From assembly GCF_007992175.1 (NCBI RefSeq), contig NZ_BJZT01000044.1:1-64000 (forward strand): a stretch of DNA of 64,000 nt. Reading direction: 5' to 3'. The stretch is from Methylobacterium haplocladii (GTDB taxonomy: Bacteria > Pseudomonadota > Alphaproteobacteria > Rhizobiales > Beijerinckiaceae). The notes beneath the pieces were generated by a model, which worked only from the letters and a program-made list of their open reading frames with translations, searched no databases and was not told the origin of the DNA. Numbering within the stretch: the stretch's first letter is position 1; each line of letters starts with the position of its first letter. Both the position numbers and the translations under genes were made by a program. Shown here one piece after another: positions 9,578 to 63,260 of the stretch.

Positions 9578-9608
9578 CGCGGTCGTCTCGCAGGTCGAAT
9601 AGTCGTGA

Positions 9609-11867: not shown

Positions 11868-11996
11868 ATGTTCGACTACCGACGTACCTCCGCCCCGGCG
11901 GAGATCAACCGGCCCATCACCGAGGACTGCCCGTTCTCGACAACTGCCGGGTCGATCGATCGCTACGGGCAACCGTCCAGGGGACTCCCGTCGTGA
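11868..11996 (+). CDS. 42-aa ORF coupled to second tniQ
   Basis: This is a small frame starting at an ATG preceded by a purine-rich GGGAGAAGG. It ends in TGA that overlaps a GTG start of the next gene (GTGA). The product is hydrophilic with no recognised motif. It may be a leader peptide for translational coupling of the tniQ-like gene. It is too short to be certain it is translated. Confidence 0.4.
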   Translation: MFDYRRTSAPAEINRPITEDCPFSTTAGSIDRYGQPSRGLPS

Positions 11997-14344: not shown

Positions 14345-16227
14345 CGGCCTTGAATATCCGATGGTGCGGAACGCTCCCGCGCCTTCATTTGAGGGGTCTT
14401 AAGATAAATCTCACAGGAGCGGTCGAATAGACGGATTTCGATTTGCCCGCGAACAGCCAATTCGATCGCGGGTCTGCAACCTGCTGCCGTCAGTCGGGAA
14501 AGAATCGCCCTGGCGCTCGTCGACCGAGATCGGGCGAGCTCCGTGGTCGAAACGAAGCGGCTTCCGAACTGTTCGACATCTCTTCTATCCAGTACGCGTC
14601 GACCCCGGCTATTCTCGCCGACCGGAATGAGGCCGGTGCCGGCAATCAATGCCAGTCCGTATTGGCGCATGCGAAGGATACGGCCCGCTTCGGAAAGTGT
14701 GACCTGGGGAAGCTCCCGCACGCGACATGCCTCGACGATCCCTGTCGTTGGAACGAAGATCCGTTTGAATCCCGGGCCGGCCTCCAGCTGTCCGATCGGA
14801 GCGAGGCGTCCCTCCAGCAAAGCTCGGCAGAGAGGTACGATGCCGACACTGCGCGCGGCCGCGGCCAGACAGGCGGACCCTTTCGGAGGCGAAGCGACGA
14901 ACGGAGCACGTCCGGCCATTTTCCCGAGAATGGCCTCGACTGCAGCGGGATCGAATCTCGGAAATGCAGAAGCGGTCTGGCCTAGAGGATCGAGAGGAAG
15001 GATCTCCGCTTCGACAAGCTTGCGGACCGAGGCCGGTGTGATGCCGACACGTTTCGCGAGCGCGTTCACGTCGACGAGGGTCTCAAGCCGCTTCGCCAGC
15101 ATCTGGACCTGGCGGCGGTCGACGGTGGGACGGCATCGATCCTGAAGTTCGCATCTAAGACCCGCCGCTTCCAAGACCGCGACAGTTCGCTCCCATCCGG
15201 AGCCGAATAGGAGCTTGGCTTGGCTCGCCGAGATCCGATCCGGGACAGGGGACGATCCGACATGTCGATCCCAGCCCTGCCAGGAGATCCGATGACGCCG
15301 GACGACGTTCGCGATCCTCTCGGCCATCCATGATTGGAGACGACCCTTGGGGAGGCGGGAGAACCAGCAGTAGAGCTGCCCGATCTGCACGCGTAGCTGG
15401 TCTAGACGCCCCGGCGCCGCCAACAGAAGTTCGAGCGCTTCCTCGACGCCTTCGGGCCCGCGCTGGATCGCGTGGTAGCCTGCAAGCATCATTTCCGACC
15501 GGCGCTCGGTTGGAAGTCTACCGAAGCGGACGTCGCGACCCGCCGTGAGACAGCAACCGAGCCTCTGCATCAGGTTTACGGCATCCCCGAGCGGCAGACC
15601 GTCCAGAACCGGATCGAAGATCCGAGGCAGGCCCCCGAGTCTTCCGACGACGTACCGTTCCGCCGCCAGGGTACTGGATGGCACCTCGATACGCGCAACC
15701 CGGGCCAGATCGGCTCCGCACATGCAGGAAGTGCAGCTGGCCTGCCCGATCCTGTTCGTCCGCGAGCATTCCGCACAACGATCGAGAAGCCGGATCGCAT
15801 GAAGCGGGCACGAGATGAGGGCCGCGACCGACCACCAACCACGAAGATGAAGAGGTCTCCTCGAAGAGCCGTAGCTCCGACCTGAATCATCCGCCCAGCA
15901 CCCCACGCAGAAGCGCTGTCGGTCATAGAGGATCTGCGACGGTTGAAAGGCCTCGCCGCATAGGATCACACCCCCGGTCTCGCTGGCCCTGGGTGTGAAC
16001 CAATCGATGCGTTCGACGATCGCCGGGTCGAGGATCCGTGCCAACGCCGACGTCGTGCCGTGCGTGAGATCCTTCATCCGGATGCCGCGACTGGCGAAGG
16101 TCGATCTCCGCCAGTCGTAGCCGTTCGCCTCGACGAGCCTGAGCGTGTAGCCGCACGCCGTTTCGCCGAGGATGTAAGGGGGCCGGATCGGAAAGATCAC
16201 GGCCCCCTGCTCTGGGTAAGGGCTCAC
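14332..16227 (-). CDS. tniQ: TniQ/TnsD-like target-selection protein 1
   Basis: This is a 631-residue TniQ-family protein that links the TniB/TnsC ATPase to a target site. The N-terminal TniQ domain spans about 10-175, with two zinc clusters: C107/C110 with C140/H143, and C151/C154 with C165-C170. Residues 320-631 hold four helix-turn-helix-like units (VDVNALAKRVGITPASVRKL and similar), as in TnsD proteins that read an attachment site. The GTG start overlaps the tniB stop in a GTGA junction. The frame opens upstream to 16659, but that part is shadow of tniB. It is the last gene of the transposition operon. Confidence 0.9.
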   Translation of the reverse strand: MSPYPEQGAVIFPIRPPYILGETACGYTLRLVEANGYDWRRSTFASRGIRMKDLTHGTTSALARILDPAIVERIDWFTPRASETGGVILCGEAFQPSQILYDRQRFCVGCWADDSGRSYGSSRRPLHLRGWWSVAALISCPLHAIRLLDRCAECSRTNRIGQASCTSCMCGADLARVARIEVPSSTLAAERYVVGRLGGLPRIFDPVLDGLPLGDAVNLMQRLGCCLTAGRDVRFGRLPTERRSEMMLAGYHAIQRGPEGVEEALELLLAAPGRLDQLRVQIGQLYCWFSRLPKGRLQSWMAERIANVVRRHRISWQGWDRHVGSSPVPDRISASQAKLLFGSGWERTVAVLEAAGLRCELQDRCRPTVDRRQVQMLAKRLETLVDVNALAKRVGITPASVRKLVEAEILPLDPLGQTASAFPRFDPAAVEAILGKMAGRAPFVASPPKGSACLAAAARSVGIVPLCRALLEGRLAPIGQLEAGPGFKRIFVPTTGIVEACRVRELPQVTLSEAGRILRMRQYGLALIAGTGLIPVGENSRGRRVLDRRDVEQFGSRFVSTTELARSRSTSARAILSRLTAAGCRPAIELAVRGQIEIRLFDRSCEIYLKTPQMKARERSAPSDIQGRYPV

Positions 16228-17300
16228 GCCGTACGCGCCTTCTTTTCGTAGGTCGGGTCGGACGGCTTGCCGGTGAGGGAACCGCGCGTGCGCATGGGGA
16301 GGTTCGGCCGGCTGTGGCGCCGGGTCGCCTGCTGCGGCCCCTTCGGCTGGTCGAAGGGGTTCGTCCTGTCGCCGGTGGGCTTCAGGACGTCGTGTGCGTA
16401 GCCGAGCCACTGCCCGTCGATGCGCCCGACCCCCGCTTCGAGCGAGTGCTCCAGCGCGATCGAGAGCAGCCGGGTCACGCGACCGACGATGCCGCCCGTC
16501 GAGGCATGAATCGCGCCTGCCAGCTTCGGATCGGCCAGATTCCAGGGCTCCGACAGGTCCATGCCGGCTTCCAGGTCGACGAGAAACTCGCGGAGCGGCT
16601 TCTGGTCGGCCTCGTCCGCACCCCAGCCGAACGGGACCAGAGGAAAGCGGTGACGGCACCGGCGGTCGAGCTGCGGGTTCGCATCGACGGGCCTAGCCGC
16701 CACCGGCATCCCGCTGAGGACCATCTGGACCTTGGTCTCGACCAGGATGTCCTTGACGAGCTCCGACAGCTCCCAGACCACGGTCTCGTTCTGCGAGACG
16801 AGGTGATGGAACTCGTCGATGAACAAGACGCGCGTCTTCTGCCCGACGAGCTGGACCCTCAGGCGATCCAGGACCTGATGGCGATGGAGGTTCCTGGGTA
16901 CCTCGGCACCCAAGGCCCGCAGGATCTGCGTGGCGAGCGCAGTGGTGGACCGGGAGCTCGGGGCGTTGACGAAGATCGCCGACCGCTCGTCGCCCTCGGG
17001 GCCGTCCGGGATATGGAGGCCGTTGGGCGTGATCCGCGGCGGGCGACCGGTATCCTCTTCGATCCGCGCGTATTCCTCGCGGATGAACTGGCGCATGATC
17101 GTCGTCTTGCCGGTACCGGCGGCACCGGTGAGCAGGACGAACGAGCCGGGCTCGTTGCGGTCGTAGGCACGGCCGAGCCGGTGAATGGCTTTGACGCCCT
17201 CCACCAGATCAGGATGGCTCTCGACGAGCTGCCGCTTCATGCGCGTCAGCACGACCTCGGCTTCGGGGGACAGGGGGCGGAACTCAGGCAAAGTCGACAA
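16224..17300 (-). CDS. tniB: TniB/TnsC-like AAA+ transposition regulator
   Basis: This is a 358-residue AAA+ ATPase of the TniB/TnsC class. Walker A GAAGTGKT is at 59-66 and Walker B VLFIDEFHHL at 158-167. A sensor segment VQMVLSGMP follows, the typical Tn7-like regulator order. Such proteins assemble on target DNA and activate the transposase. A TTG start overlaps the tniA stop (17284-17300), and the end overlaps the tniQ start. The last 45 residues are a basic disordered tail, a likely contact with TniQ or TnsA. Confidence 0.92.
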   Translation of the reverse strand: MSTLPEFRPLSPEAEVVLTRMKRQLVESHPDLVEGVKAIHRLGRAYDRNEPGSFVLLTGAAGTGKTTIMRQFIREEYARIEEDTGRPPRITPNGLHIPDGPEGDERSAIFVNAPSSRSTTALATQILRALGAEVPRNLHRHQVLDRLRVQLVGQKTRVLFIDEFHHLVSQNETVVWELSELVKDILVETKVQMVLSGMPVAARPVDANPQLDRRCRHRFPLVPFGWGADEADQKPLREFLVDLEAGMDLSEPWNLADPKLAGAIHASTGGIVGRVTRLLSIALEHSLEAGVGRIDGQWLGYAHDVLKPTGDRTNPFDQPKGPQQATRRHSRPNLPMRTRGSLTGKPSDPTYEKKARTA

Positions 17301-19575
17301 AGGTGGCGCTCCTGTTGCGGCGGGGCATGACGACGGCAGCGTCCACGACGGCAGCAGTCGGCATCTCGGTGTCGGCGACCGCGGGCGCGCCGGAAGCAGG
17401 CGGCGCCGCGTCGTCGGTCGTCGAAATGGGGTTCACGTCGTCGTCGACTTCCGTCTCGACGACCTCCTCCGGCGGTACGCCGGCGTCGGGGTCGGCCTCG
17501 GCTTCCTGCAACGACGGCGTCGGCGGAGCGGGAAGGCGAGGCCTTTCGGCCGGCACGAGCTCGTACTCGGCGGTCACCACGCCGTCCTCGAACTCGTCCC
17601 TCGCGTCCTCCATGCCGATGAAGGCGTGGAAGTCGTGCTTGATCTCGGCCAGGGGATCGACCTTGGCGGCCAGGAAGCGGGCGGCACGGTTCGTGACCCG
17701 CTTCGACGCCCTACGGTTGTTCATCTCCTCCTGGGGCGCGCGCAGCAGCCGCTTCGCCGCGTCCATGTCCGCCTGGGTCACGCGCTCGTTGGCCTTCCGG
17801 CGCGAGCGGGCCTCGGCCCGGATGACGAGATGGTCGTGACGGGTACGGCCGCGAGCGTCCGGATCCGACGCGGCAAGCGTGATCCAACGGCCGTCCGGAC
17901 CGAGCAGGTATCCGCGACCGACATCCATCGCGTCGATCTTGAACTGGTACTTGACCTTGCCGGGACCATGTCGGTCCAGCAGCGCCTGAAGCTGTTCCGA
18001 GCCGTGGCCGTAGAACAGACCCATCCACTCGATGCCGGTGTGCTGGACCGAGACGACCTTGGTCGACGAGATGAGGGGGATCAGCTGGTCGACCGAAGGT
18101 GCCATGTCGACGTGATGAACGTCGGCGAGCTTCCTCCACTTCTCGGCGGGAGTGTCGTCGATACCCTCGTGCCACTTCCGCATGAAGACGTCGCAGAGAT
18201 ACTTGCAGGCGGCCCAATTCGCCTGCTCGAGCGTGAGCTTGGCGTTGCCGGCTGCGTCGTACTCGGGCCTGCGCCCGCCATTCTTGAACAGGCTCCCCGG
18301 CATGCCGCTGAACAAGGTCTCCTTGAATTCGCGGATCTGGCGTTCGACGATCCCCTTGAGGTCGGGACGGCCGGCCGGCGTGTGCAGCAGGCGGATGCCG
18401 AGCTGGCCCGTCGCCATGATGAGGTCTGCGGAGCGGTAGTCGGCGCCCTGGTCGGTGAAGACCTTGCCGGGCTTGCACGTCCCCAGGAACGGATGGTCGA
18501 TCCCTTCCAGGTTCGCGAGCCAGGTCTTCGGCATCATCGACATCCGGAGAGCCTCCTGGATGGTCGGGTAGCCCTCCTCCAGACCGACGTAGAAGCCGAT
18601 GATGGCGCGGGTCGCCAGATCGACGACGATGGTCAGGGTGACCTGCTTGAAGCGCAGCCCCGTCAGCGGGCAGCGCACCACGATCGGCAGCTTCGTGGAG
18701 TCGATCTGGACAGCCTCGCCCGGGCGCTGGTAGCGCGGCCCGCGCCCCTTGATGCGATACTTGCGGTCGGCGTCCTGCGGCCCGTCGCGATAGTAGGTCT
18801 TCTCGCGCGACTGGATGTCGGCGATCGTCCGGTAGAAGGCCTGGATGTCGGGCACGGCGGACTCGACCTCGGCCTCATCCTTCCCATGCTGGCGCGCGAC
18901 CCTGCGGATCTCGTCGCGGACCATGCAGAAGATGTCGGTCGCCCTGGGGCGTTCGGACTGCAGATACTGAGCGACCGCGAAGCGGTTCATGATCTCGTAC
19001 GCCGGCGCCCACAGGCGCGGCTTGCGGTTGCCCTGGTGTTGGCGCTGCGGGACGAGGGCCGACAGGCAGCCACCCGACAGCTGGTACCGGCGATACCAAT
19101 TCAGGAGAGCGGCTCCGCTCGGCGCGTCGTCCACGCCGTTCGGCTCGATGACCTTCGCCACGCGGCGGCACAGCAGGTCCAGCGGCTTCGCCTGGAGGAC
19201 GATGCGCGAACGCTTCTTCGTCTGGGAGGGGCGATACTGCTTGAGACGGCTCATGTTCCGCAGCGACAGCCCGAACTCGAGCGCGCGGACGTAGCGATGG
19301 CGACGCTTGGCGATGGCCTGCTGCTCTTCCGTGAAGCTCGTGATGTCGCGGCGCATGTCCTCGATGAGCTTGGCCGGAAGGCCCTTGCCGGCCTGCGGTT
19401 CGATGCGAAGACGCTGGTCGAGCCAGAGCTTCGTCAACTCGTCCCACCTGTAGGGTTTGGACGCGCCGCCGCCTTCGGGCTTCAACGCGATGCCGTTTTC
19501 GAGAAGGGTGGTGGGAGAGAAGCGAACGCCGTCGATGATGACGACATCGTCCTGGGTCAGGCGAAACGGGTTCAT
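17284..19575 (-). CDS. tniA: TniA/TnsB-like DDE transposase
   Basis: This is a 763-residue retroviral-integrase-type transposase. The catalytic triad is Asp292 (VQIDSTKLP), Asp375 (KVFTDQGADYRS) and Glu411 (GIVERQIREF), with spacing close to Tn7 TnsB. Residues 1-60 form a short module (VVIIDGVRF...WDELTKLWLDQRLRIEP) that recurs as separate proteins upstream. Residues 80-200 are the DNA-binding HTH region. After 480 comes a Mu-type beta-barrel, then a proline- and acid-rich tail that probably contacts TniB. The start ATG is preceded by a GAGAGG ribosome site within a leader repeated twice more upstream. Confidence 0.93.
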   Translation of the reverse strand: MNPFRLTQDDVVIIDGVRFSPTTLLENGIALKPEGGGASKPYRWDELTKLWLDQRLRIEPQAGKGLPAKLIEDMRRDITSFTEEQQAIAKRRHRYVRALEFGLSLRNMSRLKQYRPSQTKKRSRIVLQAKPLDLLCRRVAKVIEPNGVDDAPSGAALLNWYRRYQLSGGCLSALVPQRQHQGNRKPRLWAPAYEIMNRFAVAQYLQSERPRATDIFCMVRDEIRRVARQHGKDEAEVESAVPDIQAFYRTIADIQSREKTYYRDGPQDADRKYRIKGRGPRYQRPGEAVQIDSTKLPIVVRCPLTGLRFKQVTLTIVVDLATRAIIGFYVGLEEGYPTIQEALRMSMMPKTWLANLEGIDHPFLGTCKPGKVFTDQGADYRSADLIMATGQLGIRLLHTPAGRPDLKGIVERQIREFKETLFSGMPGSLFKNGGRRPEYDAAGNAKLTLEQANWAACKYLCDVFMRKWHEGIDDTPAEKWRKLADVHHVDMAPSVDQLIPLISSTKVVSVQHTGIEWMGLFYGHGSEQLQALLDRHGPGKVKYQFKIDAMDVGRGYLLGPDGRWITLAASDPDARGRTRHDHLVIRAEARSRRKANERVTQADMDAAKRLLRAPQEEMNNRRASKRVTNRAARFLAAKVDPLAEIKHDFHAFIGMEDARDEFEDGVVTAEYELVPAERPRLPAPPTPSLQEAEADPDAGVPPEEVVETEVDDDVNPISTTDDAAPPASGAPAVADTEMPTAAVVDAAVVMPRRNRSATFVDFA

Positions 19576-19720
19576 GCAAAACCTCTCTGTTCACGCTCCT
19601 CCTCGGAGCGCGTTGCGGTGGATTGGAAGGAAGGAGCGATCGGTCGGCGTCCGACCGGGAGACCGATGCAGTCGATCGACGGCGAAGGGCTCGGCGGTCG
19701 CGAACGACGGTCTCGGCGAG

Positions 19721-19996
19721 CTAGTCCGGCGGGTATTCAGCCTTCGGACGGTGTCCGACCTCGGGACCGGCGCACGTGCCGGAAGGCGACGCGACGGCCG
19801 ACGCCGTCGCCGAAACGGCATTCCATCGGCCGGAGCACTCGTCGGACACGAACCGAATGCCGAGCTGCGCGCAGGTCGCTGCAAGGCTGTCCGAGCGGTA
19901 GTCGGCGCCCATATCCGTCACGATCTTGGACGGCCAGCACACCGCCATCGCGGAATGGTCGATACCGGGTGCGCGGGGATGGCGGCGCGGGTTCAT
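19721..19996 (-). pseudogene. tniA remnant: leader fused to DDE-core piece
   Basis: This frame of 91 codons starts with the tniA leader and MNP. After eight residues it jumps into a segment matching TniA residues 359-398 (IDH, then KIVTDMGADYRSDSLAAT and QLGIRF), including the second catalytic Asp. The N-terminal module, HTH region and first Asp are absent, and the rest runs out of homology after FVSDEC. It looks like a duplicated tniA with a large internal deletion. It could still be translated as a short peptide, but cannot be a transposase. Confidence 0.7.
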
Positions 19997-20120
19997 GCAA
20001 GACCTCTCTGTTCACGCTCCTCGGTGGGAGCATGCTGCGACGGGAATGCGGTTCGGCATGTTTCGCAGGCACCGCGGCGGCGTCCGATCGGACGGAGCAG
20101 TGCCGGGCGGGCAGAAGGCT

Positions 20121-20312
20121 TCAGCAGGAGGCGGGGACGATCCGCATCCGCTTCTCGAGCCACAGGGACATGAGCTCGTCCCAGCCGAAAGGATTGGGCG
20201 AGCTTACGATGTCGGAGCGCAGCAGGATGCCGTCCTCCAGAAGGGCGGTCGGCTTGAGGCGGATGCCATCGATCACGACGACGTCGGCGTCGGTCAGGCG
20301 GAACGGGTTCAT
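20121..20312 (-). CDS. stand-alone TniA N-terminal module, 63 aa
   Basis: This encodes 63 residues that align end to end with TniA residues 1-60. The starts MNPFRLTDAD and MNPFRLTQDD match. Then come VVVIDGIRLKPTALLEDGI against VIIDGVRFSPTTLLENGI, and WDELMSLWLEKRMRI against WDELTKLWLDQRLRI. The shared leader supplies the ribosome site. Identity is high yet differences are scattered and conservative, so this is a maintained gene and not a fresh fragment. In known families the transposase N-terminus contributes to DNA-end binding or assembly, so a free copy might compete with TniA or nucleate its assembly. That role is inference. Confidence 0.72.
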   Translation of the reverse strand: MNPFRLTDADVVVIDGIRLKPTALLEDGILLRSDIVSSPNPFGWDELMSLWLEKRMRIVPASC

Positions 20313-20462
20313 GCAAAGCCTCTCTGTTCGCACTCGTCGTCGGAGCGCGTTGTTGGTGGGGTGATGGGTCAACGGCGCCTACGCGATACGACCGGACCGG
20401 GTGCTTCGCCGGGCGGCGTCGCTGGTCCTATCGATCGGTTCGACCGCCGGCGGCGCCGTCGT

Positions 20463-20798
20463 TCAGTTCAGGCGCCGCGAGCGATCGGACGGAGGACCGA
20501 ATTCGAGAAGGAGGACCGAGGCGCTCGTACCGGCATCCTCGTCGGCCAACTCGACGACGGCCGATGCCATTCCGGCGCGCCCATGCTCGATGTGCAGGCG
20601 TTCTTCCGAGCACAAACTTCCAAGAGCGTCCCAGGACAGGAACCGGACCAGGCCGCAGCCTTCGGACCGGACTTCGACCCCGTCCTGAAGGGTACGGATA
20701 GAAATGAAGCTGAAGCCGTCTACGACGAGGCTGTCTCGTTCGGTCAGGTTCACCGAGAGGAGGGAGCTCAGGGCGGTCGGAAAGCTGAAGGCATGCAT
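20463..20798 (-). CDS. TniA-N-like small protein, 111 aa
   Basis: Residues 17-70 repeat the TniA N-terminal pattern in diverged form: a beta segment (SLVVDGFSFISIRTLQDGVEV) followed by a helix (LSWDALGSLCSEERLHIEH). About 35 residues follow it with no motif I know. The gene is in the same direction and operon as tniA. Similarity is to spacing and the hydrophobic/acidic pattern rather than to long identical runs, so membership in the family is moderately sure. Confidence 0.6.
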   Translation of the reverse strand: MHAFSFPTALSSLLSVNLTERDSLVVDGFSFISIRTLQDGVEVRSEGCGLVRFLSWDALGSLCSEERLHIEHGRAGMASAVVELADEDAGTSASVLLLEFGPPSDRSRRLN

Positions 20799-20908
20799 CC
20801 GATGGGTCCTTCCGGGTTCTGTTCGATCGATCGGCGCAGGCCGAGGCGATTGGGACGATGGCGCTCGGCGCAGATCGCGCCGAGTGGCCGGATGGATGCA
20901 GACCGCCG

Positions 20909-21603
20909 TCAGGCGAAGCTGTTTTCGTGCGTGAAGCGATGGGTCTTCCAGGGGTAGGCCAAAGGGCGCCATCCCCTCCGAGCGAAGCTATCGAGAAGGT
21001 CGGCAACAAACGGCCGGTCGCCGTACGTGCGCAGATGCTCCCTATACTGGAAGAATTCACGGGCCTCGCAGTCGGCGAGGCGAAGAACGTGGCGAATGCT
21101 TTTGCGTAACCTGTCCGCCGGGCTGGTTGCCCGATATTTGTATGCGCAGGACGTGACCTTGCGGGATATTCCCCAGCGGACCGGATCGGACAGACGGCTG
21201 GCGTTCCCGACGATGTGATCGCTGCCCTCGTACCGATCGAGAGCGCGTTCGAACGTCAGCATCCTTCCGTCGGACGAGAGCTTGCCGCGAAGAGCACACG
21301 GTAAGCGACGCCAAGCCCAGGATCCGGCTTCGTCCAGCAACGCCTCGACAGACCGGCAGCTGCCGAAATGCGCACGCTTCGAAAGCCAGAGCTCGGCAAG
21401 GTCCACACACCAGAGGACCTGCGTCCTGGTGAAGTCGAGGGCACGCAGAATGATGCTGAGCCCCTTCGAGCGTACCTTCCAAAAGCGGCCGTCGATCAGG
21501 ACGAGCTTGTGCTTTTCGAGGGTGCCGACAGCTTCGAGGCCGGCCATCATCCGACGCGTGCCGATCGATGCGGCGTCGAACTCGTTCGGCAGATCGGAGT
21601 GCA
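20909..21603 (-). CDS. TniA-N-like protein with long extension, 231 aa
   Basis: This encodes about 231 residues from the ATG at 21603. The module is at about 32-80: LVLIDGRFWKV, then VDLAELWLSKRAHF. A segment DEAGSWAWRRLP matches EEPGSWAWRRPN in the protein from 22909, so these two share more than the core module. The remaining 120 residues are basic and helical with no recognised domain. The upstream sequence CCGAAAGGCGAAACC is close to the leader of the 22909 gene. Its role is unknown; a regulatory or assembly partner of the transposase is plausible. Confidence 0.62.
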
Positions 21604-21770
21604 TGGTTTCGCCTTTCGGTTCGAAAACGAGGATTCGAGAGGGATGGAGAACGATCCGACGCGGAGACGCGGAGAGCATCCGCGCCGCCAGCGCTCCCTC
21701 GGTCAGCCGAGGGGCGGCGGGACGAGAGCGGCTCGCAATCGCGTTGCGATCGGCGGCCTCGGGCGGACCC

Positions 21771-21944
21771 TCAGCAGGCCCAGGATCCGAATTCGATCCG
21801 CGTCCGCTTTTCGAGCCACGAGATCATCAGTTCGTCCCAGTGATCGAGAGCGGCTGCGCCACCTTCGGAGGTGAGACTGACCGGTTCGGTCGTGCCGTCG
21901 TTGCGGACGTCGTCGTGCAAGCCGGTTTCAATGGACGCGTTCAT
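21771..21944 (-). CDS. TniA-N-like minimal protein, 57 aa
   Basis: The 57-residue product keeps only the C-terminal helix of the module, HWDELMISWLEKRTRIE at about 34-50, close to the 63-aa protein's WDELMSLWLEKRMRI. The N-terminal 30 residues lack the VxIDG strand. The ATG follows AGGAATTGC. It may be a shrunken relict of a family member or a functional miniprotein. It sits between two larger family members in the same direction. Confidence 0.5.
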   Translation of the reverse strand: MNASIETGLHDDVRNDGTTEPVSLTSEGGAAALDHWDELMISWLEKRTRIEFGSWAC

Positions 21945-22069
21945 TGCAATTCCTTCGATGCCTCTTGTCGGGCGAGCGCTGCGCATCGAAACCGAGCGAG
22001 CGAAGACGGTGACGATGGACGGAATCGGTTCGCTGCAAGGCAGACCGCCGCCCCTATTGCCGACCAAGG

Positions 22070-22909
22070 CTATCGCCCGATCGGCAGGCACAGCTCTTCG
22101 GGGATCAAAGCGTTGCGGACGTGCCAGCGGCACTTTCCCAGCAAGGTCTGCTCGAGATAGTCGGCGATGAACGGCCCGAAACAGCGTTCGAAACGCGCCT
22201 TGCCCTCGTGCCAAGCCTTGATCAGATCGGCCTTCCGGTACGCCGTCCGGTAACTCTCGTCCTGCAAGCGGACGAAGATCACTTCCTCGCCGTTCCAACG
22301 CCCCCGACCCGTTACGAGGCAACGGAACCGATCTACGACGGGGATATCGCGGTGCGGGACCTCGCCGATCCTGATCCCGTCGAACAGGATGTCGTCGGAA
22401 TCGGTGCCGTGCCGAAAGGCGGACTGCGCAAGCGACATGGCACGAGCGGAAACATCGGGCTTGCTCGCTGCCGTCGCATGCCGTGCCGGTTCGAAGAGCC
22501 CGTCGAGTGCGTTCTCGACGTCCAGCTCGTCGTTCATGCCGGAGACCAGATCGTATTCAGAATCTCCCCTCATCCAATTCGGCCGCCGGCGCTGGGCGTG
22601 GTTCGGGCGCCTCCAAGCCCAAGATCCGGGTTCCTCCAGCAGCTCCTTCACAGAGCGGAAGCATTCGAAGTGAGCTCGGCTAGTCAGCCAGAGTTCGGCC
22701 AGATCGGTCCGGGTGAACACCCTCGCGGTATTGTCCCGCATCGATTCGAGCAGGACGAAGTCGAACCCGGTACACGTGACCGTCCAGAAGTCGCCATCGA
22801 TCATCACGCGATCGCTTTCGCGGAGACTGGCGACGGAGCGCATACCCGTCAGCATCTCGCGCAACTCGATCGCTATGGCCGAAAATTCATAGTCAAAAAG
22901 GGATTTCAT
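22070..22909 (-). CDS. TniA-N-like tandem-module protein, 279 aa
   Basis: This is a 279-residue protein with two copies of the module. The first is at about 36-85 (DRVMIDGDFWTV, then TDLAELWLTSRAHFE). The second is at about 195-245 (DRFRCLVTGRGRW, then RKADLIKAWHEGKARFE). Between them is EEPGSWAWRR and an acidic linker. Upstream AAACCGAAAGGTCGG precedes the ATG. It is the largest member of the family between tnsA and tniA. By analogy with the TniA N-terminus, a DNA- or transposase-binding scaffold is possible; nothing more can be claimed. Confidence 0.62.
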   Translation of the reverse strand: MKSLFDYEFSAIAIELREMLTGMRSVASLRESDRVMIDGDFWTVTCTGFDFVLLESMRDNTARVFTRTDLAELWLTSRAHFECFRSVKELLEEPGSWAWRRPNHAQRRRPNWMRGDSEYDLVSGMNDELDVENALDGLFEPARHATAASKPDVSARAMSLAQSAFRHGTDSDDILFDGIRIGEVPHRDIPVVDRFRCLVTGRGRWNGEEVIFVRLQDESYRTAYRKADLIKAWHEGKARFERCFGPFIADYLEQTLLGKCRWHVRNALIPEELCLPIGR

Positions 22910-23012
22910 AGTCCGACCTTTCGGTTTGTATTCGAGAATACTGGGCGCTCGATGGATGGGGACGGGGCGCCGGCGATCGCAGGGCATTCCGCGATCGTCG
23001 TAGCGTCACCGG

Positions 23013-23735
23013 TCAGTCGACGAAGGTCGGCTGGACGAGCGCCTTGGCGTCGAGCGGGCGCTCGAGGTTCAGGTCGACCTCGTTGCGCATGTGGAGCCGC
23101 AGGATGGCCTGGAAGGCCCTGGGTCCGATCCCAGCCGCCTCCCTCACCTCGGCGACGGACAGGACCGAAGGAGCGGCCTCCTTCAGGACTTTGCGGACCC
23201 GGTCGAGCGCCTCGACGTCCTCGAGGGGACCGGACTGGTCGAAAAGAAGCTCCGCGTTGGAGAACCGCGGCTGGCGACGGATGTCCTCGTCGGTCCAGAC
23301 TTCGTAGCTCAGGCCGCGCTGCCGGAAGGCGGCCTTGATCAAACCAAGCTCTTCGGACAGCGCATCGGCCACGGCCTTCGGCTTGACCTGGATGTAGACG
23401 GGCTTCGGAACGAACCTGCGCATCACCGCAAAATCCGGGATGTGCACACGCCACTGCGAAGTGCGAGGATCCCACCAGTGGAACCTGATCGGCTGCGGAC
23501 GGACGCTCGTCGTGATGCCGTCGGACCGGGTCAGTACGAGAAAGTCGTGCTCGAGCAAGGACTCGAACTCGATTAGACCTTCCTTGGAGGACCGCCGCTT
23601 CCCGGTCGGTGCCATGAGGTTGTCGAGATCGAACCAGGGAACGACACCGCAGAAGCTCCTGCGGTTGGTGGCCTTATCGGCTTTGCGGACGCCGCGGACG
23701 CGGGCCAGGTTCTTCGGGGTGAAGGCGATGTTCAT
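23013..23735 (-). CDS. tnsA: TnsA-like transposon-end endonuclease
   Basis: This is a 240-residue protein with a PD-(D/E)XK nuclease core. The acidic residue is Glu62 (LLEHDFLVL), with Asp101 (HIPDFAV) and Lys118 in QVK (YIQVKPK), matching the Tn7 TnsA triad in order and spacing. The C-terminal part (about 170-230) is a winged-helix-like TnsA C-domain. TnsA cuts the 5' ends, allowing cut-and-paste movement with TniA. It shares the operon direction with tniA but is separated from it by the small-gene series, which is unusual since tnsA and tnsB are normally adjacent. The frame extends upstream, but the ATG at 23735 fits the family start. Confidence 0.88.
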   Translation of the reverse strand: MNIAFTPKNLARVRGVRKADKATNRRSFCGVVPWFDLDNLMAPTGKRRSSKEGLIEFESLLEHDFLVLTRSDGITTSVRPQPIRFHWWDPRTSQWRVHIPDFAVMRRFVPKPVYIQVKPKAVADALSEELGLIKAAFRQRGLSYEVWTDEDIRRQPRFSNAELLFDQSGPLEDVEALDRVRKVLKEAAPSVLSVAEVREAAGIGPRAFQAILRLHMRNEVDLNLERPLDAKALVQPTFVD

Positions 23736-23944: not shown

Positions 23945-24730
23945 TCAGCGCGCTGCATTGGATATCTCCTGAAGGTTTCGGCGGATCTCGTTTTCGAGCT
24001 CCTCGAAGGCCGGCCGGATCGAAGGATCGATCCTGCATTGCGCGCTCGTTCGGGGACCGGGAGGCCAAACCTCGACATCTCGATAGCTCGGCCGATCCGA
24101 GAGGTCGGAAGCGCTCGGCTGCCTCGAAGCCATGGTCGGCTGGCGAAGACTCACGACCCGAGCCTGGACATCCTGCCGATCCGCCGCGACCCGCGTTCGC
24201 GGATCCCGTTCGTGAAGCTCCGAACCGCCGAAACGCTGTCCGCCGGCCTTGCAGGGTGCGGGCGGCTTGAACGGAACCTCGCAGTCCCGTTCTTCGGAGG
24301 GCTTCTTGCGGTTGAATGCTTCGGCCAGGACTTGACCGAGGGTGCGGTCATCCCGCTTGCGGTGAGGCGGCTTCCCGGTCGCGTCCTCACCCTCCGGCGG
24401 CTCGGCAGGATGCAAGGTCGCGATGAGGTCGTAATCCACTTCCCGCCCGCCCTCGGACGGCAGAAGCCAGTCGTCGACCTGATCGTTTCCCTTGCGGCTC
24501 CGGGCTACAAGCTCCCAGTATCCGTCCTCGATCAGCTGCTCCGACGGGACCTCGAAGTCCTTGCGAAGGTACGCGACCAGGGCCACGATCGCCTCGATCT
24601 CGACGTGCTCGCGTCCCGAACGCCGCATGAAATGGACGGCCTCGGCATAGGCACGGTGTCGTGCGCGGTCGTCGGCGACGGAGGGAACGGTCGTCGCGGC
24701 TGCATCGAATTCGAAGGAATGCTGGCCCAT
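23945..24730 (-). CDS. hypothetical protein upstream of tnsA
   Basis: This is a 261-residue hydrophilic protein. The N-terminal 100 residues (HMRRSGREHVE-like helix, then LVAYLRKDFEVPSEQLIEDGYWELVAR) look folded. Residues 110-240 are rich in Pro, Arg and acidic residues and probably disordered, and a charged helix ends it. No family is recognised. It is co-directional with tnsA, 210 bases apart. Operon position suggests an accessory role in transposition, but this is only context. Confidence 0.5.
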   Translation of the reverse strand: MGQHSFEFDAAATTVPSVADDRARHRAYAEAVHFMRRSGREHVEIEAIVALVAYLRKDFEVPSEQLIEDGYWELVARSRKGNDQVDDWLLPSEGGREVDYDLIATLHPAEPPEGEDATGKPPHRKRDDRTLGQVLAEAFNRKKPSEERDCEVPFKPPAPCKAGGQRFGGSELHERDPRTRVAADRQDVQARVVSLRQPTMASRQPSASDLSDRPSYRDVEVWPPGPRTSAQCRIDPSIRPAFEELENEIRRNLQEISNAAR

Positions 24731-24809
24731 GGCGAAGTCTCCGGTGTCGTTTCTGCTGAAGGCAGCCGCTCCGCCATGTTCGGCAGGAGCGGCGATCGGG
24801 TCCGCAGGA

Positions 24810-24977
24810 CTAATCTTGGTCGCCGTCGGACCAGGGCATGGGGCGTGCGGGCGACCAGCGTTCGATCAAAGGATCGATGTCCGGACGTCGCATGAGCTCG
24901 GCCTCGCGACGCAGAAATTCTGCGAGTTCCCAGCTGTCGGAATGCTTCATGTGGCGGAAACGAAAATCGAACGACAT
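24810..24977 (-). CDS. 55-aa hydrophilic protein, first in tns operon
   Basis: This short frame has 55 codons and a good ribosome site: GAGAGGCTTTCC, similar to the repeated tniA leader, ends at its ATG. The product is charged (KHSDSWELAEFLRREAELM as a helix, then Pro/Trp-rich) with no known domain. It begins the leftward gene run that continues through tnsA to tniQ. The leader similarity argues that it is really translated. Confidence 0.45.
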   Translation of the reverse strand: MSFDFRFRHMKHSDSWELAEFLRREAELMRRPDIDPLIERWSPARPMPWSDGDQD

Positions 24978-25650
24978 GGAAAGCCTCTCAATCTGATTTC
25001 GATGAGCAAGAAGCCGATATCTATCGACTGTATTGCCCGACTCCGTAGCCCGGATCGGATCGTAGACTTATCGGAAATTTCAGACCGCTCGGAGAGTGTA
25101 GTCTTCGCTAAGAAGACAAGACACAATTCGATCGTGATTTGAAATTACTCGGGGTTTTCCGGGTGGACGTCGGGGATGAAAGAACGTCGAAACCGAAATG
25201 CCGAAGGCCGAAATGTCGTGGAGCCGAAGGGGAGACCAATGGGACCGGACGACGGAGGCGTCCGGTGGGTGGCTTCCAGGGGCCTGGACCTGTTTCGCGA
25301 AAACGGTCGTCTGGCTGCCCAGCGAGTGAATTCGCCTGCTCGCGGCGAGGTCACTCTACGCTTCGGGACCTGTCTCGGTCGGAAGCGCGGTGGGGGCGTC
25401 CCTTCGGAAAAGCTTGGGCGGCGGCTCTAAGGCTCGCCGAAACTGGTTCGACGGCAGGCCTTAGGAGGCGGCGCGGGCGCTGTCCCGAAGGGACACTGGT
25501 GGCAATTCGAACCGGGTCATGACAACCGTCTTGGTCAAGCTGAACCGTCTTTGCCGGAAGCTGAGCTTGAACGCAAGCTTCGATCGATGCCTTCGATTTA
25601 CTATGGTTTATAAAGAACTACTACATCTGAACAGATTTTGAAATTCTTGG
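24978..25650. other. probable promoter region and noncoding DNA
   Basis: No well-supported gene is found here. The right half is AT-rich (25560-25650). A small stem-loop, GTCTTC-GCTAA-GAAGAC, lies at 25101-25117. The leftward transposition operon must start within 24978-25150, but no clear -35/-10 pair can be assigned. A rightward 84-codon frame at 25176-25430 has a segment that looks protein-like (VRWVASRGLDLF), but no start signal or homology could be supported. Confidence 0.4.
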
Positions 25651-26301
25651 TCACACAGAGATACTTATACTGTTCTGCGGATTTGCTGCCGCTGCGCTCG
25701 CCGGGAGCGGGCGGCTTTGTCCGCGACGGAGGCGTACGGTGATGTCCGGCGACAATGGCGAACGAATTTCGACTTCGGCCTGCCCGGCGCAGATCACGGC
25801 GAGAACGATATCGACGCTTTCGGCGGTCTCGGAACGAACGCATTCCATGAGCCGACGCAGCGGAAGGCCTGAGGAATGCTGGTCGAGCAATCCAAGGATG
25901 CGGAAGCGGTCTCCGTGTGAGACCGGAGTGTTGCGGCAGGCCCAGATGCCGCGTGCCGTCGAGCATCTGGGCTCGGACAGGACAAAGGATCGTGCGAGCA
26001 CCATGGTGTCCGTCGCACAGGGCATCGTGAAATCCGACGCCTCCCGGACTGCGATCAATCGGCGGCGCTGGCCGCCGAACCAGACGAACACTTCGAACGG
26101 ATCCTGACCGCGTTGGCTCGAGGTAGCTTGCTCGATGGCGGCAACGGCCGGGTCCAGCGTGGCCTGGATCAGCAGGTCCCGATGCCACCTTTGGGGATAG
26201 GATATGGCCCCGATGGTCTTGCCGGATCGAAATCCAGGACGTTCGGTCGGCCGCGACGCGTGGGCATCGTTTTCGGCCGCAGATACGCTCTGTGGTGACA
26301 T
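25651..26301 (-). CDS. TnsA-like protein lacking catalytic residues
   Basis: This 216-residue protein has the outline of TnsA. A helix HRDLLIQATLDPAV (40-53) stands where TnsA has LEHDFLVLTRSDG. A beta segment FVWFGGQRRRLIAVREASD follows, and then a winged-helix-like C-half (GDRFRILGLLDQHSSGLPLRRLM). The catalytic Glu is replaced by His40, and neither the PD nor the QVK position is visible. It is probably a nuclease-dead paralog that might keep a TnsC-binding or regulatory role. The match is structural impression, not strong identity, and a different family is possible. Confidence 0.5.
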   Translation of the reverse strand: MSPQSVSAAENDAHASRPTERPGFRSGKTIGAISYPQRWHRDLLIQATLDPAVAAIEQATSSQRGQDPFEVFVWFGGQRRRLIAVREASDFTMPCATDTMVLARSFVLSEPRCSTARGIWACRNTPVSHGDRFRILGLLDQHSSGLPLRRLMECVRSETAESVDIVLAVICAGQAEVEIRSPLSPDITVRLRRGQSRPLPASAAAANPQNSISISV

Positions 26302-26621
26302 GGTCTCGACTCCACCTTCACAGGGCGATCGAAACCTCGAACCGGAAGGTGGCGGCTCGGAAGTCGGCTAGCAGGATGCGGTTTGCGGCATGTTCGGGAT
26401 TTCCGGCAGGTCGTAGTCGTGGACCTCGTTCCGACGTCGGCGCTACCGATCGATAGCAGATGAGCATCCGCAGAAAAGGCCAAAACGGCCTTCTTGTCTT
26501 CTTTTGTTAGCCAAACTGCGGAAAGCAAGGATTACGATGATATCTTGCAGATAATCGAAAATTCTTGACCTGAGATTATTCTTGATATGACTCCGCGCGC
26601 GCCGACAGACTTCTGGGAAAC
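26302..26621. other. intergenic, AT-rich, one hairpin
   Basis: No gene is supported between the TnsA-like gene and the HTH gene. The segment at 26440-26600 is AT-rich. It contains the hairpin annotated at 26476-26500 and otherwise no feature I could assign. Confidence 0.4.
26476..26500 (+). terminator. possible terminator hairpin
   Basis: AAGGCC (26476-26481) pairs with GGCCTT (26487-26492) around a 5-base loop. A pyrimidine/T-rich run CTTGTCTTCTTTTGTT follows on the plus strand. No plus-strand gene ends just upstream, so it may act on leftward transcripts from the HTH gene as well, where the following T-run is poorer. Confidence 0.35.
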
Positions 26622-26954
26622 TCAGGACGACGTGCTGCGACTGGCAGCGGTCGCCAGCCAGGCCTGGATGCTCCGCACGAACGCTTCCCGACGCTCGGGG
26701 CCGGCGGCCCCAGCCAGTCGATCGAGCTCGCCGAGCACGGCGCGACGGAACGCATCCGGCCCGGGATCTCGATGCGGGGCATCGAACGGCCTTTCCACCA
26801 GCATCATCAGATCGAGCAGGCGTTCGATCTCCGGCGGAGGTCCCGAGGCCGCCCAGTTATGGATCGTGCGGAGAGCGAAGCCGTGCTCCTCCGCAAAGCC
26901 GATCTGGGTTCGGCCGAGCAGTTTCAGTCTGGCCTTGAAGCTCGGCCCGTCCAT
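26622..26954 (-). CDS. small helix-turn-helix protein
   Basis: This encodes about 110 residues. Residues 6-45 resemble a Cro/CI-type HTH (RLKLLGRTQIGFAEEHGFALRTIHNW). The rest is helical and ends in an Ala/Ser tail. It is transcribed divergently from the 318-aa gene at 27219, with about 260 bp between them, which fits a regulator of that promoter. The ATG at 26954 is chosen; an in-frame extension to 27005 adds no HTH features. The target is unknown. Confidence 0.5.
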   Translation of the reverse strand: MDGPSFKARLKLLGRTQIGFAEEHGFALRTIHNWAASGPPPEIERLLDLMMLVERPFDAPHRDPGPDAFRRAVLGELDRLAGAAGPERREAFVRSIQAWLATAASRSTSS

Positions 26955-27218
26955 GATTGGCAGTCGGATGTCAGGCCAACGAGTTCGTTGCCCATAGCAT
27001 GGCATTGCAGCCCCGCTTCTTCCAGTGATCCGTTCCTTCGGTGTCGCGGTCGGCGATCTCCGTCGTTCCTTCGCAACCCCCGCGAGGCAGAACCAGGATT
27101 ATGGAAATTGTCCGAAGAACCACCACGGAGGAAGCCATAAACTTCTGAGAAGAAACGCTTTTGCGATTTTCGTCGCTTTCCGCAAGCATGATGATTCGAC
27201 CTATCGGAGGCCAGGATC

Positions 27219-28175
27219 ATGCTGGACGGGGATGCAGGATATCCGGACGACGTTTTCGCCGCGAAGCCGGGCGCTCGCGCGAGCGCGAATGCGTCAGCCG
27301 GCGCATTCGATCGGCCGGTCACCTTCACCGAGATGTGCATTCTGGCCGGCGTCCGGAGTTCGCTCGCTTCGCGGCAGGTCTGGAATGCGCTCTGCGCCGC
27401 GGCGGTCAGAGGCGAAGTCCCCAGCTTGAGCAGCGTTCCGGTCCGGATGATCGCCTACGCCAGCGACGGCGACCGCTTCCGGATCCATGGCGAGGACGCC
27501 TTCAAGGTCGTCGAGCCCTTCGGTTCGCTTGTGCGGCAGGTCGAGAAGCGTTCAGCTCGGGAATACGAGCGCTTCGACTCCGAAACCCATGGTGACTGGC
27601 TCGGGCGCCGTGCGGTGGCCGACGCGCTCGGCGACGGGATGACGGACGAACTATTGGCCGATGTCTGGTTCAAGCTCGGCGACGACATACGGAATGGACG
27701 GCGAAGCCGGATCGGCGTCGCGGCAATCCGCACGAAGCTCCTCGTGCATCATGGCGATCGCACCAGGGTCTTCGTCCATCGGAACGATCTCGGAAAGCTC
27801 GACTGGCGAAACTATGTGGGCGACCGTCGCTTCATGTCGCCCCGCCAGGTCGTGGACCACTTCCGGGAGCGCGATCTCTGGCTGGGGATCGTCGCGGACT
27901 GGCTCATGCCGAGCGTCAAGCGCCACTGCGAGCTGACCGGTCGCCTCGTCATGCAAGGCGTCCCGCTCGGACAGGTCGTCGTTCCCACGCGCCAAGGCTT
28001 GCGGATGCGCATGCCGGCGGCATCGCTCCAGACGGTCGAAAGCCTCGTACTCCAAGCGAGCGAGCGCCGCATCGCCAGGGATATCGCTCGCGTGACGAGG
28101 GAGGACGCGGATTCCTATCTGGTCTCCGATCACGAGCTTGAACGTCCAAGCACCATCTCAATGGTTCCGGCATGA
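27219..28175 (+). CDS. 318-aa protein of unknown function
   Basis: This is a 318-residue soluble protein with no recognised domain. Its ATG follows GGAGGCCAGGATC. Several helix-beta units recur through it, and a helical MSPRQVVDHFRERDLWLGIV segment near 205 resembles the HTH repeats at the TniQ C-termini. It lies between the degenerate TnsA-like gene and the protease operon and may be transposon cargo or a transposition accessory. Function cannot be assigned. Confidence 0.5.
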   Translation: MLDGDAGYPDDVFAAKPGARASANASAGAFDRPVTFTEMCILAGVRSSLASRQVWNALCAAAVRGEVPSLSSVPVRMIAYASDGDRFRIHGEDAFKVVEPFGSLVRQVEKRSAREYERFDSETHGDWLGRRAVADALGDGMTDELLADVWFKLGDDIRNGRRSRIGVAAIRTKLLVHHGDRTRVFVHRNDLGKLDWRNYVGDRRFMSPRQVVDHFRERDLWLGIVADWLMPSVKRHCELTGRLVMQGVPLGQVVVPTRQGLRMRMPAASLQTVESLVLQASERRIARDIARVTREDADSYLVSDHELERPSTISMVPA

Positions 28176-28442
28176 TGGGCCGCCCGTTTGCAGCGGCGTG
28201 ATGGAGGCGCCTTTCGAGCAACCAGTGCTGAAGACGACCGTGTGGGACGTCTGTGGACGAGCATCGATCCAACTAGCATAAGTTCCTGCTTTGTTCTATT
28301 TCGCATACATCGCCTATGAAGCAGGCGATCTCCCGAAGGCGGCGTCCGCGGAGTGCTCGATCCGATCGAGCCGGCCACGTCGATCATCCGATCCAGCCAT
28401 TCCGCTGACGGCCGTGCCCAGTCCGGCCGGGGGAGACGCTTT

Positions 28443-30587
28443 ATGTTCGACAGCCCAATCTCCAAGACGATCGACGTTCCTGCTGGAGAAGCGCCGGCAG
28501 CTGCCTCGACCGATCAACTCGCGCGCGCTTTTCTCAAGGCGCTTGCCCAGAAGGAGCGCGAGCGTTGGAAGCACGGGGCCAAGGAAGCCTCCAACGCCTC
28601 ATTCGTCGACGACGATGACCCGGTCGAGAAGATCATCGCTCAGGACGAGCCCGACAGGCAGGCGCAGCACGTTCCGGTCCCTCCGGGCCGTGCGCTGACC
28701 GCCGTCCTGGTCGCTCGCGCCATCGAAGCGGATTCGGATGTTCTTCGCCGGCTGCGCCGCGAAAACCCGGTCGTCGTCATCGCCACCCACATGCCGGAAC
28801 TGATCGATGCGACGCGCTACGTGGTCGAGAAATGCGCTCTTCCGACCGACACCTTCGTCAAGGACTTGAACGGTTCGAAGTACCATGACCTCAGACGCAG
28901 TGAGGTCGGTCTCGTCGTCCGGGACGGGTCCGGCAGGGAGCATAATCCCGACACCGGCAACGCTGCCATCGGCGCCGCGCTTCACGCCGGAGCCGCGCTC
29001 ATCGGGATCGCTCCAGATCCGAAGCGTCAATTGCCGAGGGACCTCCTGCGCTCGGCGGAACATCGCCTCGTTCTGCCGCCTATCGATCATGGCGCGATCG
29101 CGCTGATGGTCGAGGCCGTCACGGGCGGCGTCCCGACGCGTCGGCTCGATGACGCGCTGCTCCGGACCCTGGACATCGGCGATCTTCCGGTCGCGCTCCG
29201 CAATGTGCGTTCCGCAGACGATGGCATCGACGCGATCGCGCGCGTCCTGTCGCAGAAGGCCGACTACCTCGAGTCCGGCCCCTCGCTCGACGAACTGCAT
29301 GGCTACGGGGCAGCCCGGGATTGGGGCCTGGCTCTCGCACAAGACCTAAACGACTATCGCGCCGGCCGCATCGATTGGTCCGATATCGACAACCGCGGAC
29401 TTCTCCTGTCGGGTCCGCCCGGTGTTGGGAAGACGAGCTTCGCCAAGGCGCTGGCGAAAAGCGCCCGCGTCCCGCTCGTCGCGACCAGCGTCGCGGAGTG
29501 GAATAGCGCCAACTACATGAGCGGAACCCTTCAGGCGATCCGGGAGGCCTTTTCTCGCGCGCGGGCGCAGGCGCCCTGCCTGCTCTTCATCGACGAGCTC
29601 GATGGGATCTCGGACAGAACGCAGATCCGGGGGGAATACGTCCAGTACTGGACGCAGATCGTGAACCTCTTCCTCGAATTGCTCGCCGGCGTCGAGGAAC
29701 GTCCCGGGGTCGTGGTCGTCGCCGCGACGAACCATCCCGATCGGATCGATGCCGCCGTCAAAAGGGCCGGTCGCCTCGACCGCGAGATCGCGATCGAGAA
29801 GCCCGACGTCGCCACGCTCGATCGGATCTTCCGCCATCACCTTGGGGCGGAGACGTTGCCGGACATCTCGCTGGCTCCAGTCGCGCTCGCCGCCCGCGGC
29901 CGCACTGGGGCCGATGTCGAAAGCTTCGTCCGCCGTGCACGCGGCCGGGCTCGCCGCGGCGGCCGCGAACTCCTCCTGGCCGACCTAATGGCCGAGGTCC
30001 GGGACGACGCTCCGCAACTGTCTTCCGACGACCGTCGCCGGATCGCCATCCACGAGGCGGGCCACGCGGTCGCATGCCGGGCGCTCGGCTTCCATGACGC
30101 GATCGTCGACGTGTCGTTGAGCGATGCAGGCGGCCTGCTCGTCATGACGCAGCAGATCACCGGCTGTTCGACGCTACCCCAGCTCGAAGCGATGCTCACG
30201 GTGATTCTGTCCGGTCGCGCGGCCGAACGGATCTGCCTCGGCGAGGCTTCGATCGGCGCCGGAGGACGCGCGAACTCCGACCTGGAGCGTGCGACGACGA
30301 TCGCCCGGGATATCGAGGCAAGGTATGGGCTCGGCGCCTTGGGTCCGGTCCTTGTCGACGTCTCCGCCACCGACCTGCTCATTCCCAACGGGCTACTCGA
30401 GCAGGTGGCGAAGCGACTGCGGGCGGCCGAGGAGCGCGCCCGCGTGCTCCTCGAGGACCATCGGAAGCAGGTGGAGGCAATCGCAGCAGCTCTCGAAGCC
30501 GAGGGCTATCTGGCCGGTGCCGAGATCGAACGGCTTCTGGCTACTGCCGCTTCGCCGAGCACTCCCAATTCGGAAGGGAGGCGGTGA
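28443..30587 (+). CDS. soluble FtsH-like AAA metalloprotease
   Basis: This is a 714-residue protein that combines an AAA+ domain and an M41 zinc-protease domain. Walker A GPPGVGKT is at 324-331 and Walker B LLFIDELD at 380-387. The zinc motif HEAGH is at 537-541, and SDLERATTIARDI carries the distal Asp ligand. Unlike housekeeping FtsH it has no N-terminal membrane anchor. Instead the first 290 residues contain a novel helical region (about 90-290) with no family I know. The ATG at 28443 is preceded by GGGGAGACG. It overlaps the next small gene and probably forms a three-gene operon. Its position inside the transposon region suggests cargo; a proteolytic defence role is speculation. Confidence 0.85.
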   Translation: MFDSPISKTIDVPAGEAPAAASTDQLARAFLKALAQKERERWKHGAKEASNASFVDDDDPVEKIIAQDEPDRQAQHVPVPPGRALTAVLVARAIEADSDVLRRLRRENPVVVIATHMPELIDATRYVVEKCALPTDTFVKDLNGSKYHDLRRSEVGLVVRDGSGREHNPDTGNAAIGAALHAGAALIGIAPDPKRQLPRDLLRSAEHRLVLPPIDHGAIALMVEAVTGGVPTRRLDDALLRTLDIGDLPVALRNVRSADDGIDAIARVLSQKADYLESGPSLDELHGYGAARDWGLALAQDLNDYRAGRIDWSDIDNRGLLLSGPPGVGKTSFAKALAKSARVPLVATSVAEWNSANYMSGTLQAIREAFSRARAQAPCLLFIDELDGISDRTQIRGEYVQYWTQIVNLFLELLAGVEERPGVVVVAATNHPDRIDAAVKRAGRLDREIAIEKPDVATLDRIFRHHLGAETLPDISLAPVALAARGRTGADVESFVRRARGRARRGGRELLLADLMAEVRDDAPQLSSDDRRRIAIHEAGHAVACRALGFHDAIVDVSLSDAGGLLVMTQQITGCSTLPQLEAMLTVILSGRAAERICLGEASIGAGGRANSDLERATTIARDIEARYGLGALGPVLVDVSATDLLIPNGLLEQVAKRLRAAEERARVLLEDHRKQVEAIAAALEAEGYLAGAEIERLLATAASPSTPNSEGRR

Positions 30588-61544: not shown

Positions 61545-61557
61545 CGATTCCTCCCGC

Positions 61558-62244: not shown

Positions 62245-62252
62245 GGTCGGCC

Positions 62253-63224: not shown

Positions 63225-63260
63225 GGTCGTCCTGTGCAGGTCGTCGGGTGGGTAGAGGGG

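Follow-up and report, generated by a model that had tools for sequence, protein, structure and literature searches.

The sequence analysed here, a stretch of 64,000 nucleotides from Methylobacterium haplocladii (contig NZ_BJZT01000044.1, hereafter the window), carries a minus-strand Tn7-like operon with the gene order tnsA, tniA (TnsB), tniB (TnsC) and tniQ. The Tn7-like element to which this operon belongs has drawn a new family of accessory genes from its own transposase. The 3437 bases between tnsA and tniA (19576-23012) hold six open reading frames (ORFs), named a6, a5, a4, a3, a2 and a1 in reading direction, and residues 1-60 of TniA are the parent of the module present in this array. We consider, with somewhat less than even confidence, that the array encodes free TnsB N-terminal domains (N-domains) which originated from duplicated tniA 5′ ends and which would modulate assembly of the transposase in trans. 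A first-pass annotation of the same DNA had placed tnsA and tniA 3.4 kb apart, in agreement with our count, and had traced five small ORFs to the TniA N-terminus; this derivation was put to the test and held, as both a profile match and the same fold were found. It had overlooked the sixth ORF, a1, which is not an N-domain.

All six ORFs are read from the minus strand. The shortest clear copy, a2 (20121-20312, 63 amino acids (aa)), is an almost bare module with a tniA leader 5′ of it, and shows 57% aa identity to TniA 1-60 and 73% identity to the start of tniA when compared as DNA over 215 bases. In a3 (20463-20798, 111 aa) the N-domain is accompanied by N- and C-terminal tails, with 43% identity over 54 aa to TniA of the related element L034. 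The two long ORFs, a4 (20909-21604, 231 aa; the correct start is 21604, and not 21603 as previously given) and a6 (22070-22909, 279 aa), are paralogues (44% identity over 103 aa, E 5e-21), and the N-lobe of each, comprising residues ~28-85 in a6, corresponds to the TnsB/TniA N-terminal domain. Of the domain, a5 (21771-21944, 57 aa) retains just the final hairpin and helix (WDELMISWLEKRTRIE), at 55% identity over 31 aa to L034 TniA. Finally, a1 (19721-19996, 91 aa) consists of the tniA leader and the residues MNP joined to a segment corresponding to TniA 357-397 (59% identity to L034 TniA, E 2e-12), followed by an unrelated tail. The segment carries the second catalytic Asp (TDMGADYRS), and no N-domain was detected in a1 with the TniA N-terminus profile (-1.5 bits).

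The profile hidden Markov model was built from TniA N-termini only, and each protein was accompanied by 100 shuffles. Clear matches were obtained for a2 (62.8 bits), a3 (30.5 bits) and a6 (26.6 bits), with best shuffles for these three in the range of 2-4 bits (maximum 4.3 for a3 and 3.4 for a6). The match of a5 was partial (8.1 bits, shuffles up to 2.5), and a4 reached 7.1 bits, the best shuffle of any protein being 6.9. The assignment of a4 goes via a6, and hhalign comparison of the a4/a6 N-lobes with TniA N-termini gave a score of 39.5 (P 1e-6), while 40 column shuffles reached 15.6 at most. In addition, the N-lobe of a6 was recovered unaided (E 6e-4) in a genome-wide search with an alignment, A4, that includes a2 and a3 and excludes a6. 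The claim that all five ORFs carry the module therefore stands for a2, a3 and a6 and, through a6, for a4, while a5 lacks the V-x-IDG strand. Likewise, of the doubled module proposed for a6, the N-lobe was confirmed, and the C-lobe is borderline in both comparisons (6.7 bits, best shuffle 6.5; hhalign 19.6 vs 16.0), being possibly a second, weakly matching copy of the N-domain.

Structural models identify the module as the TnsB N-terminal domain, since the best solved match of both models is Tn7 TnsB (7pik). TniA 1-110 was modelled together with eight relatives, among them a2, a3 and the a4/a6 lobes, and the model is good over residues 11-60 (block means of the predicted local distance difference test (pLDDT) of 77-87), with strands at 11-14, 17-25, 28-33 and 40-43, a helix at 44-52 and a strand at 56-59. 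The N-lobe of a6, modelled alone, presents strands at 34-37, 40-46, 51-56 and 62-66, a helix at 67-76 and a strand at 82-84, which is the same order of four strands, a helix and a strand. In Foldseek searches against 350,542 PDB chains 7pik ranked first for the TniA N-domain model and for the a6 model. The latter was built without an alignment and is of low confidence (mean pLDDT 37.6); we take its agreement with 7pik as support only. With a second aligner, the TniA N-domain model was superposed on TnsB residues 1-61 of 7pik with Z 8.0 and a root-mean-square deviation of 2.4 over 59 residues; other folds reach Z 6-7.4 against the same model, which makes the value for 7pik clear, not overwhelming. 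Sequence profiles alone fail to reach Tn7 TnsB (hhalign 16.8, null maximum 17.8). The identification is nevertheless convincing because a transposase domain at the equivalent position ranks first. What distinguishes the window from Tn7 is that there this domain is known only within TnsB.

Several features of the array are those of genes. For each of a2-a6 the stated frame has the top codon score among the six frames, all scores being positive, and an AG-rich stretch resembling a ribosome site lies 6-8 bases 5′ of each ATG. The differences between the N-lobes of a4 and a6 amount to 0.43, 0.31 and 0.52 at the first, second and third codon positions, and the highest value at the third position is as expected of a protein under constraint. 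A minus-strand search of 25800 to 19400 gave no intrinsic terminator-like sites. Moreover, a leader of ~30-40 bases is common to tniA (from ~19610), a1 (from ~20030) and a2, where it reads GAGTGCGAACAGAGAGGCTTTGCATGAACC (20297-20340, minus strand, aligned by eye), and it is also found 5′ of tniA in L034 and in a second related element, L035. A hairpin with paired changes is visible in the leaders of tniA, a1 and a2; its fold z-scores lie between -1.5 and 0, and it is not claimed here.

The multi-gene array is private to the window element among the elements sampled. The expectation that tnsA and tnsB are normally adjacent was supported, as tnsA adjoins tniA in all seven close relatives (TniA 44-80% identical), with gaps of 192 bases in L034, 196 in L035, 88 in both L036 and L037 and 92 in L053, and with overlapping genes in L042 and L054, and the same adjacency was seen in nearly all distant relatives examined. 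Two of the seven have a TniA 80% identical to that of the window and are still without the array. Homologues of a4 and a6 were found neither in the genome contigs, viral contigs and plasmids, nor in 298 genomes of the family and 111 of the genus. One weak match among the family genomes (G218) proved to be an unrelated gene, ten-odd weak matches of the a6 C-lobe within the genus were in every genome one unrelated low-complexity reading frame, and small matches of a5 and TniA in L025 and L026 represent chance or IS481. No tniA was found in the viral contigs. Regarding the age of the array, synonymous divergence (dS) between a2 and the tniA of the window (0.62) is close to that between the tniA genes of the window and L034 (0.57), so a2 dates from around the split of the window and L034-type elements. 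Nonsynonymous divergence (dN) is 0.33 and 0.11 in the same two comparisons, corresponding to three times the protein change.

Single free N-domain genes do exist elsewhere. The TniA N-domain profile was searched against the 111 genomes of the genus and each gap preceding tniA was then read, which revealed elements of two further lineages, in 12 other Methylobacterium genomes, with one free N-domain gene between tnsA and tniA. These genes encode 73 aa in the G162/G303/G310/G333/G345/G377 type (27.7 bits with the TniA-only profile), 70 aa in the G232/G313/G324/G330/G383 type (14.3 bits) and 60 aa in G350 (19.6 bits), with shuffles of all three reaching at most 6.9 bits. In the 73-aa and 70-aa types the start of the free gene overlaps or closely trails the tnsA stop, and its end lies 2 bases 5′ of the tniA ATG. 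No free N-domain genes were found in plasmids. The layout, put forward as new by the first-pass annotation, is undescribed in the literature accessible to us, with some subscription papers outside, which contains no account of free TnsB N-domains or of this Methylobacterium Tn7-like arrangement, yet it is not unique in kind. The survey of other elements proposed there thus revealed single free genes and no further multi-gene array. In the TniA tree the other elements with a free gene fall in two places, both well away from the window, and all three places have sister elements without one. Three independent gains of free N-domain genes would be the simplest history.

Comparison of the G310 and G330 types shows how fast these genes diverge. 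DNA identity falls sharply to 63-69% within the free gene, from 85-99% in the genes around it, and dN and dS of the free gene are 0.46 and 0.49, compared to tniA at 0.06 and 0.25 and tnsA at 0.10 and 0.20. Its dN/dS ratio of 0.93 over 70 codons does not decide on purifying selection. Three species share the G330-type element at 100% identity over 3.3 kb, which indicates that it has been mobile with the free gene in place. Two elements of this superfamily are present in each of G330 and G345. A second TniA-like gene (TniA2, ~390-400 aa) was additionally observed just upstream of tnsA in G162/G310/G330-type elements with a free N-domain (L022, 13087-14790; L105, 2071-3759, plus strand; L106 and L109, reverse strand; a weaker relative in L108). 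It matches TniA with an hhalign score of 58.4 (null 17.7) and starts directly after the N-domain region; the first catalytic Asp is lost and the segment with the catalytic Glu is missing. Between two types with 90% identity in TniA, identity in TniA2 is 49%.

In regard to the mechanism, we propose that the 5′ end of tniA, comprising the leader and ~60 codons, was repeatedly duplicated, with the copies placed between tnsA and tniA. These would then have diverged, with a4 and a6 being extended and a5 cut down. Free N-domain proteins could be co-produced with the transposase, and TniA or TnsA would be their target in trans; a free N-domain would fill the docking site of the N-domain of a TniA protomer, on a neighbouring end-bound TniA or on TnsA. 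By analogy with N-terminal-only products of insertion sequence transposases, which repress their own elements, such docking would lower or gate the assembly of the active complex. This proposal is supported by the homology and the fold, the coding signal, the leader common to tniA, a1 and a2, the location on one strand without a terminator, the recurrence, and the tight packing and mobility of the free gene in other elements. Since single genes of this type have appeared independently in two or more other element lineages, it seems that the TnsB front end has a use as a free protein, most probably in the regulation of transposition.

A contrasting explanation, somewhat less probable in our view and still to be taken seriously, is that the gap has collected tandem tniA duplications in decay, truncated and internally deleted, which stay open by chance and high G+C content and have no function. 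Several observations weigh in this direction and against a regulatory array. No orthologue of the array was found in any genome searched; all seven relatives, including the two with 80% identical TniA, do without it, and a4 and a6 stand without homologues in the family and genus genomes, plasmids and viral contigs. Judged by its sequence, a1 is a tniA copy that has lost its interior but keeps a piece of the catalytic domain, a plain deletion remnant, and a5 is missing half of the domain. The protein change of a2 is about three times that of tniA at similar dS, and the omega of ~0.77 on its branch (estimated by hand, 60 codons only) indicates relaxed constraint. Part of the array, namely a1 and perhaps a5, may be debris. 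On the other hand, a4 (231 codons) and a6 (279 codons) are intact yet far from TniA, and neutral copies should be broken by now. All five N-domain ORFs also begin with ATG after a ribosome-site-like stretch and have codon use of the coding type, and elsewhere free N-domain genes have arisen independently more than once and persist in mobile elements.

Other possibilities accept the free N-domains as functional and assign them different roles. They could be non-catalytic subunits, positive parts of the transpososome that complete protomers or bridge TnsA and TniA, which would make the transposase heteromeric beyond TnsA and TnsB; the G310/G330-type elements would then have a split TniA, composed of a TniA2 with a broken active site and no N-domain, and of the free N-domain. 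The pairing of both genes in G162/G310/G330-type elements is in line with this, and of the TnsB protomers in the type I-F3 transpososome, half serve a purely structural role (PMC13228271). Such a role is unlikely overall, with no intact TniA2 in the window element and close relatives that persist without a free N-domain. Less probable still, fast-evolving free N-domains might serve as tags of self and non-self, blocking the sharing of transposase among co-resident elements or marking occupied sites (immunity). The dN of the free gene (0.46 vs 0.06 in tniA and 0.10 in tnsA), its sharp island of divergence and the presence of two superfamily elements in each of G330 and G345 would agree with such tags, but the ratio of 0.93 is equally produced by relaxed constraint, and dS is raised as well (0.49 vs 0.20-0.25). 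A bolder and rather improbable proposal unites these features in a new type of heteromeric transposase, in which free, fast-diversifying TnsB N-domains, accompanied in one lineage by the split, broken TniA2, would be dedicated non-catalytic subunits that select protomers at the ends, as lock and key for each element, with the window array as an extreme expansion.

The regulatory explanation which we favour has parallels in known systems. Products containing only the N-terminal part of a transposase, such as IS1 InsA, IS911 OrfA and the KP protein of the P element, repress transposition. As in the window, a separate part of the transposase is able to occupy a partner or a site of the full enzyme; however, each of these arises from one gene by frameshift, splicing or deletion, whereas the window contains separate duplicated genes in several copies. 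Duplication of a core gene in situ, followed by divergence, is also known from Tn7-like elements with dual TniQ/TnsD (PMC10293859), although there the target selector was duplicated, and in the window only the first domain of the transposase. How Tn7-like transposases stay low in activity and recognise their own ends and partners bears on transposon tools associated with clustered regularly interspaced short palindromic repeats (CRISPR). If the TnsB N-domain repeatedly evolved as a free protein, a docking partner exists and is worth finding, and free N-domain proteins would, if the explanation is true, be small ready-made regulators of Tn7-like transposition. Since free N-domains recur in three lineages, the question is open to direct test.

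A Tn7-like transposon is defined by genes of the TnsB and TnsC types together with TnsA and/or TniQ (PMC11406308), and the window element possesses this gene set. All four genes are on the minus strand. The TnsA-like endonuclease (240 aa, 23013-23735; Pfam Tn7_TnsA-like_N E 9e-5, NCBIfam TnsA_like_Actin E 4e-11) is 78% identical to that of L034. The tniA gene (17284-19575) encodes a TnsB-type DDE transposase of 763 aa with sequence matches to the TnsB structures 9y7b, 7svw and 7pik, and tniB (16224-17300) a TnsC-type ATPase (Pfam AAA_22 6e-22, TniB 8e-18). The tniQ ORF is listed at 14332-16659, with the Pfam TniQ match (E 2e-6) at residues 157-291. Since the TniQ domain starts at about residue 157, the real start probably lies near 16270; TniQ proteins of relatives align only downstream of about that residue, in a comparison where the first 130 residues of the query had been trimmed. 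Pfam searches of the operon detected TniB and TniQ, with TnsA and the rve/DDE core of TniA at sub- or near-cut-off scores. The gene set and the order are those of prototypic Tn7-like operons (tnsA-tnsB-tnsC-tniQ/tnsD), along with a second TniQ gene, but tnsA and tnsB overlap in Tn7 and are here separated by the six ORFs.

This second TniQ-family gene (11993-14344, plus strand, Pfam TniQ E 3e-6) is convergent with the operon tniQ, and L034-L037 likewise have a second, oppositely oriented TniQ-like gene. The adjoining region 10600-11700 is repetitive and includes a 129-base direct repeat (95%) with copies ~270 bases apart. Tn7-like transposons also have a left and a right end with TnsB binding sites, and a 5-bp target duplication. 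No clear terminal repeats were found in the window, nor in the 14.5-kb block which L034 and L035 have in common and which ends abruptly at either side. An 87-base inverted repeat (79%) surrounds the transposition genes in L034 (7380-7465 and 18627-18712), and likewise in L035. A related copy is located at 10718-10803 of the window, and a second one was not found at 24500-28500. It is possible that these repeats, as candidates picked out by sequence, are the ends bound by TniA. Upstream of tnsA, gene x (23945-24730, minus strand) is 33-35% identical in L034 and L035, with a strongly conserved core at 24492-24649, and has no Pfam match. Its origin from the TniA DNA-binding domain was considered and rejected (hhalign 13.7, null maximum 17.4).

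The remaining parts of the window hold genes of other kinds. A subtilase-family peptidase (862 aa) adjoins an AAA ATPase (399 aa) at 5992-9670 on the minus strand, with a HipA-like gene nearby (1119-2417), and the peptidase-ATPase pair looks like a candidate defence module. The region 31000-63900 is cargo-like, with genes resembling arsenate reductase, CzcA/CusA-type efflux and metal P-type ATPase genes, as read directly from the ORFs. Within it, 60544-63912 shares 83% identity with one flank of the L037 element, a similarity which was rejected as proof of a common insertion site and which probably reflects metal-resistance cargo in common. Between the operon and this region, an FtsH-like protein (28353-30587, plus strand) has a long N-terminal region as well as AAA and peptidase M41 domains, and adjoins a 318-aa gene of unknown nature (27219-28175).

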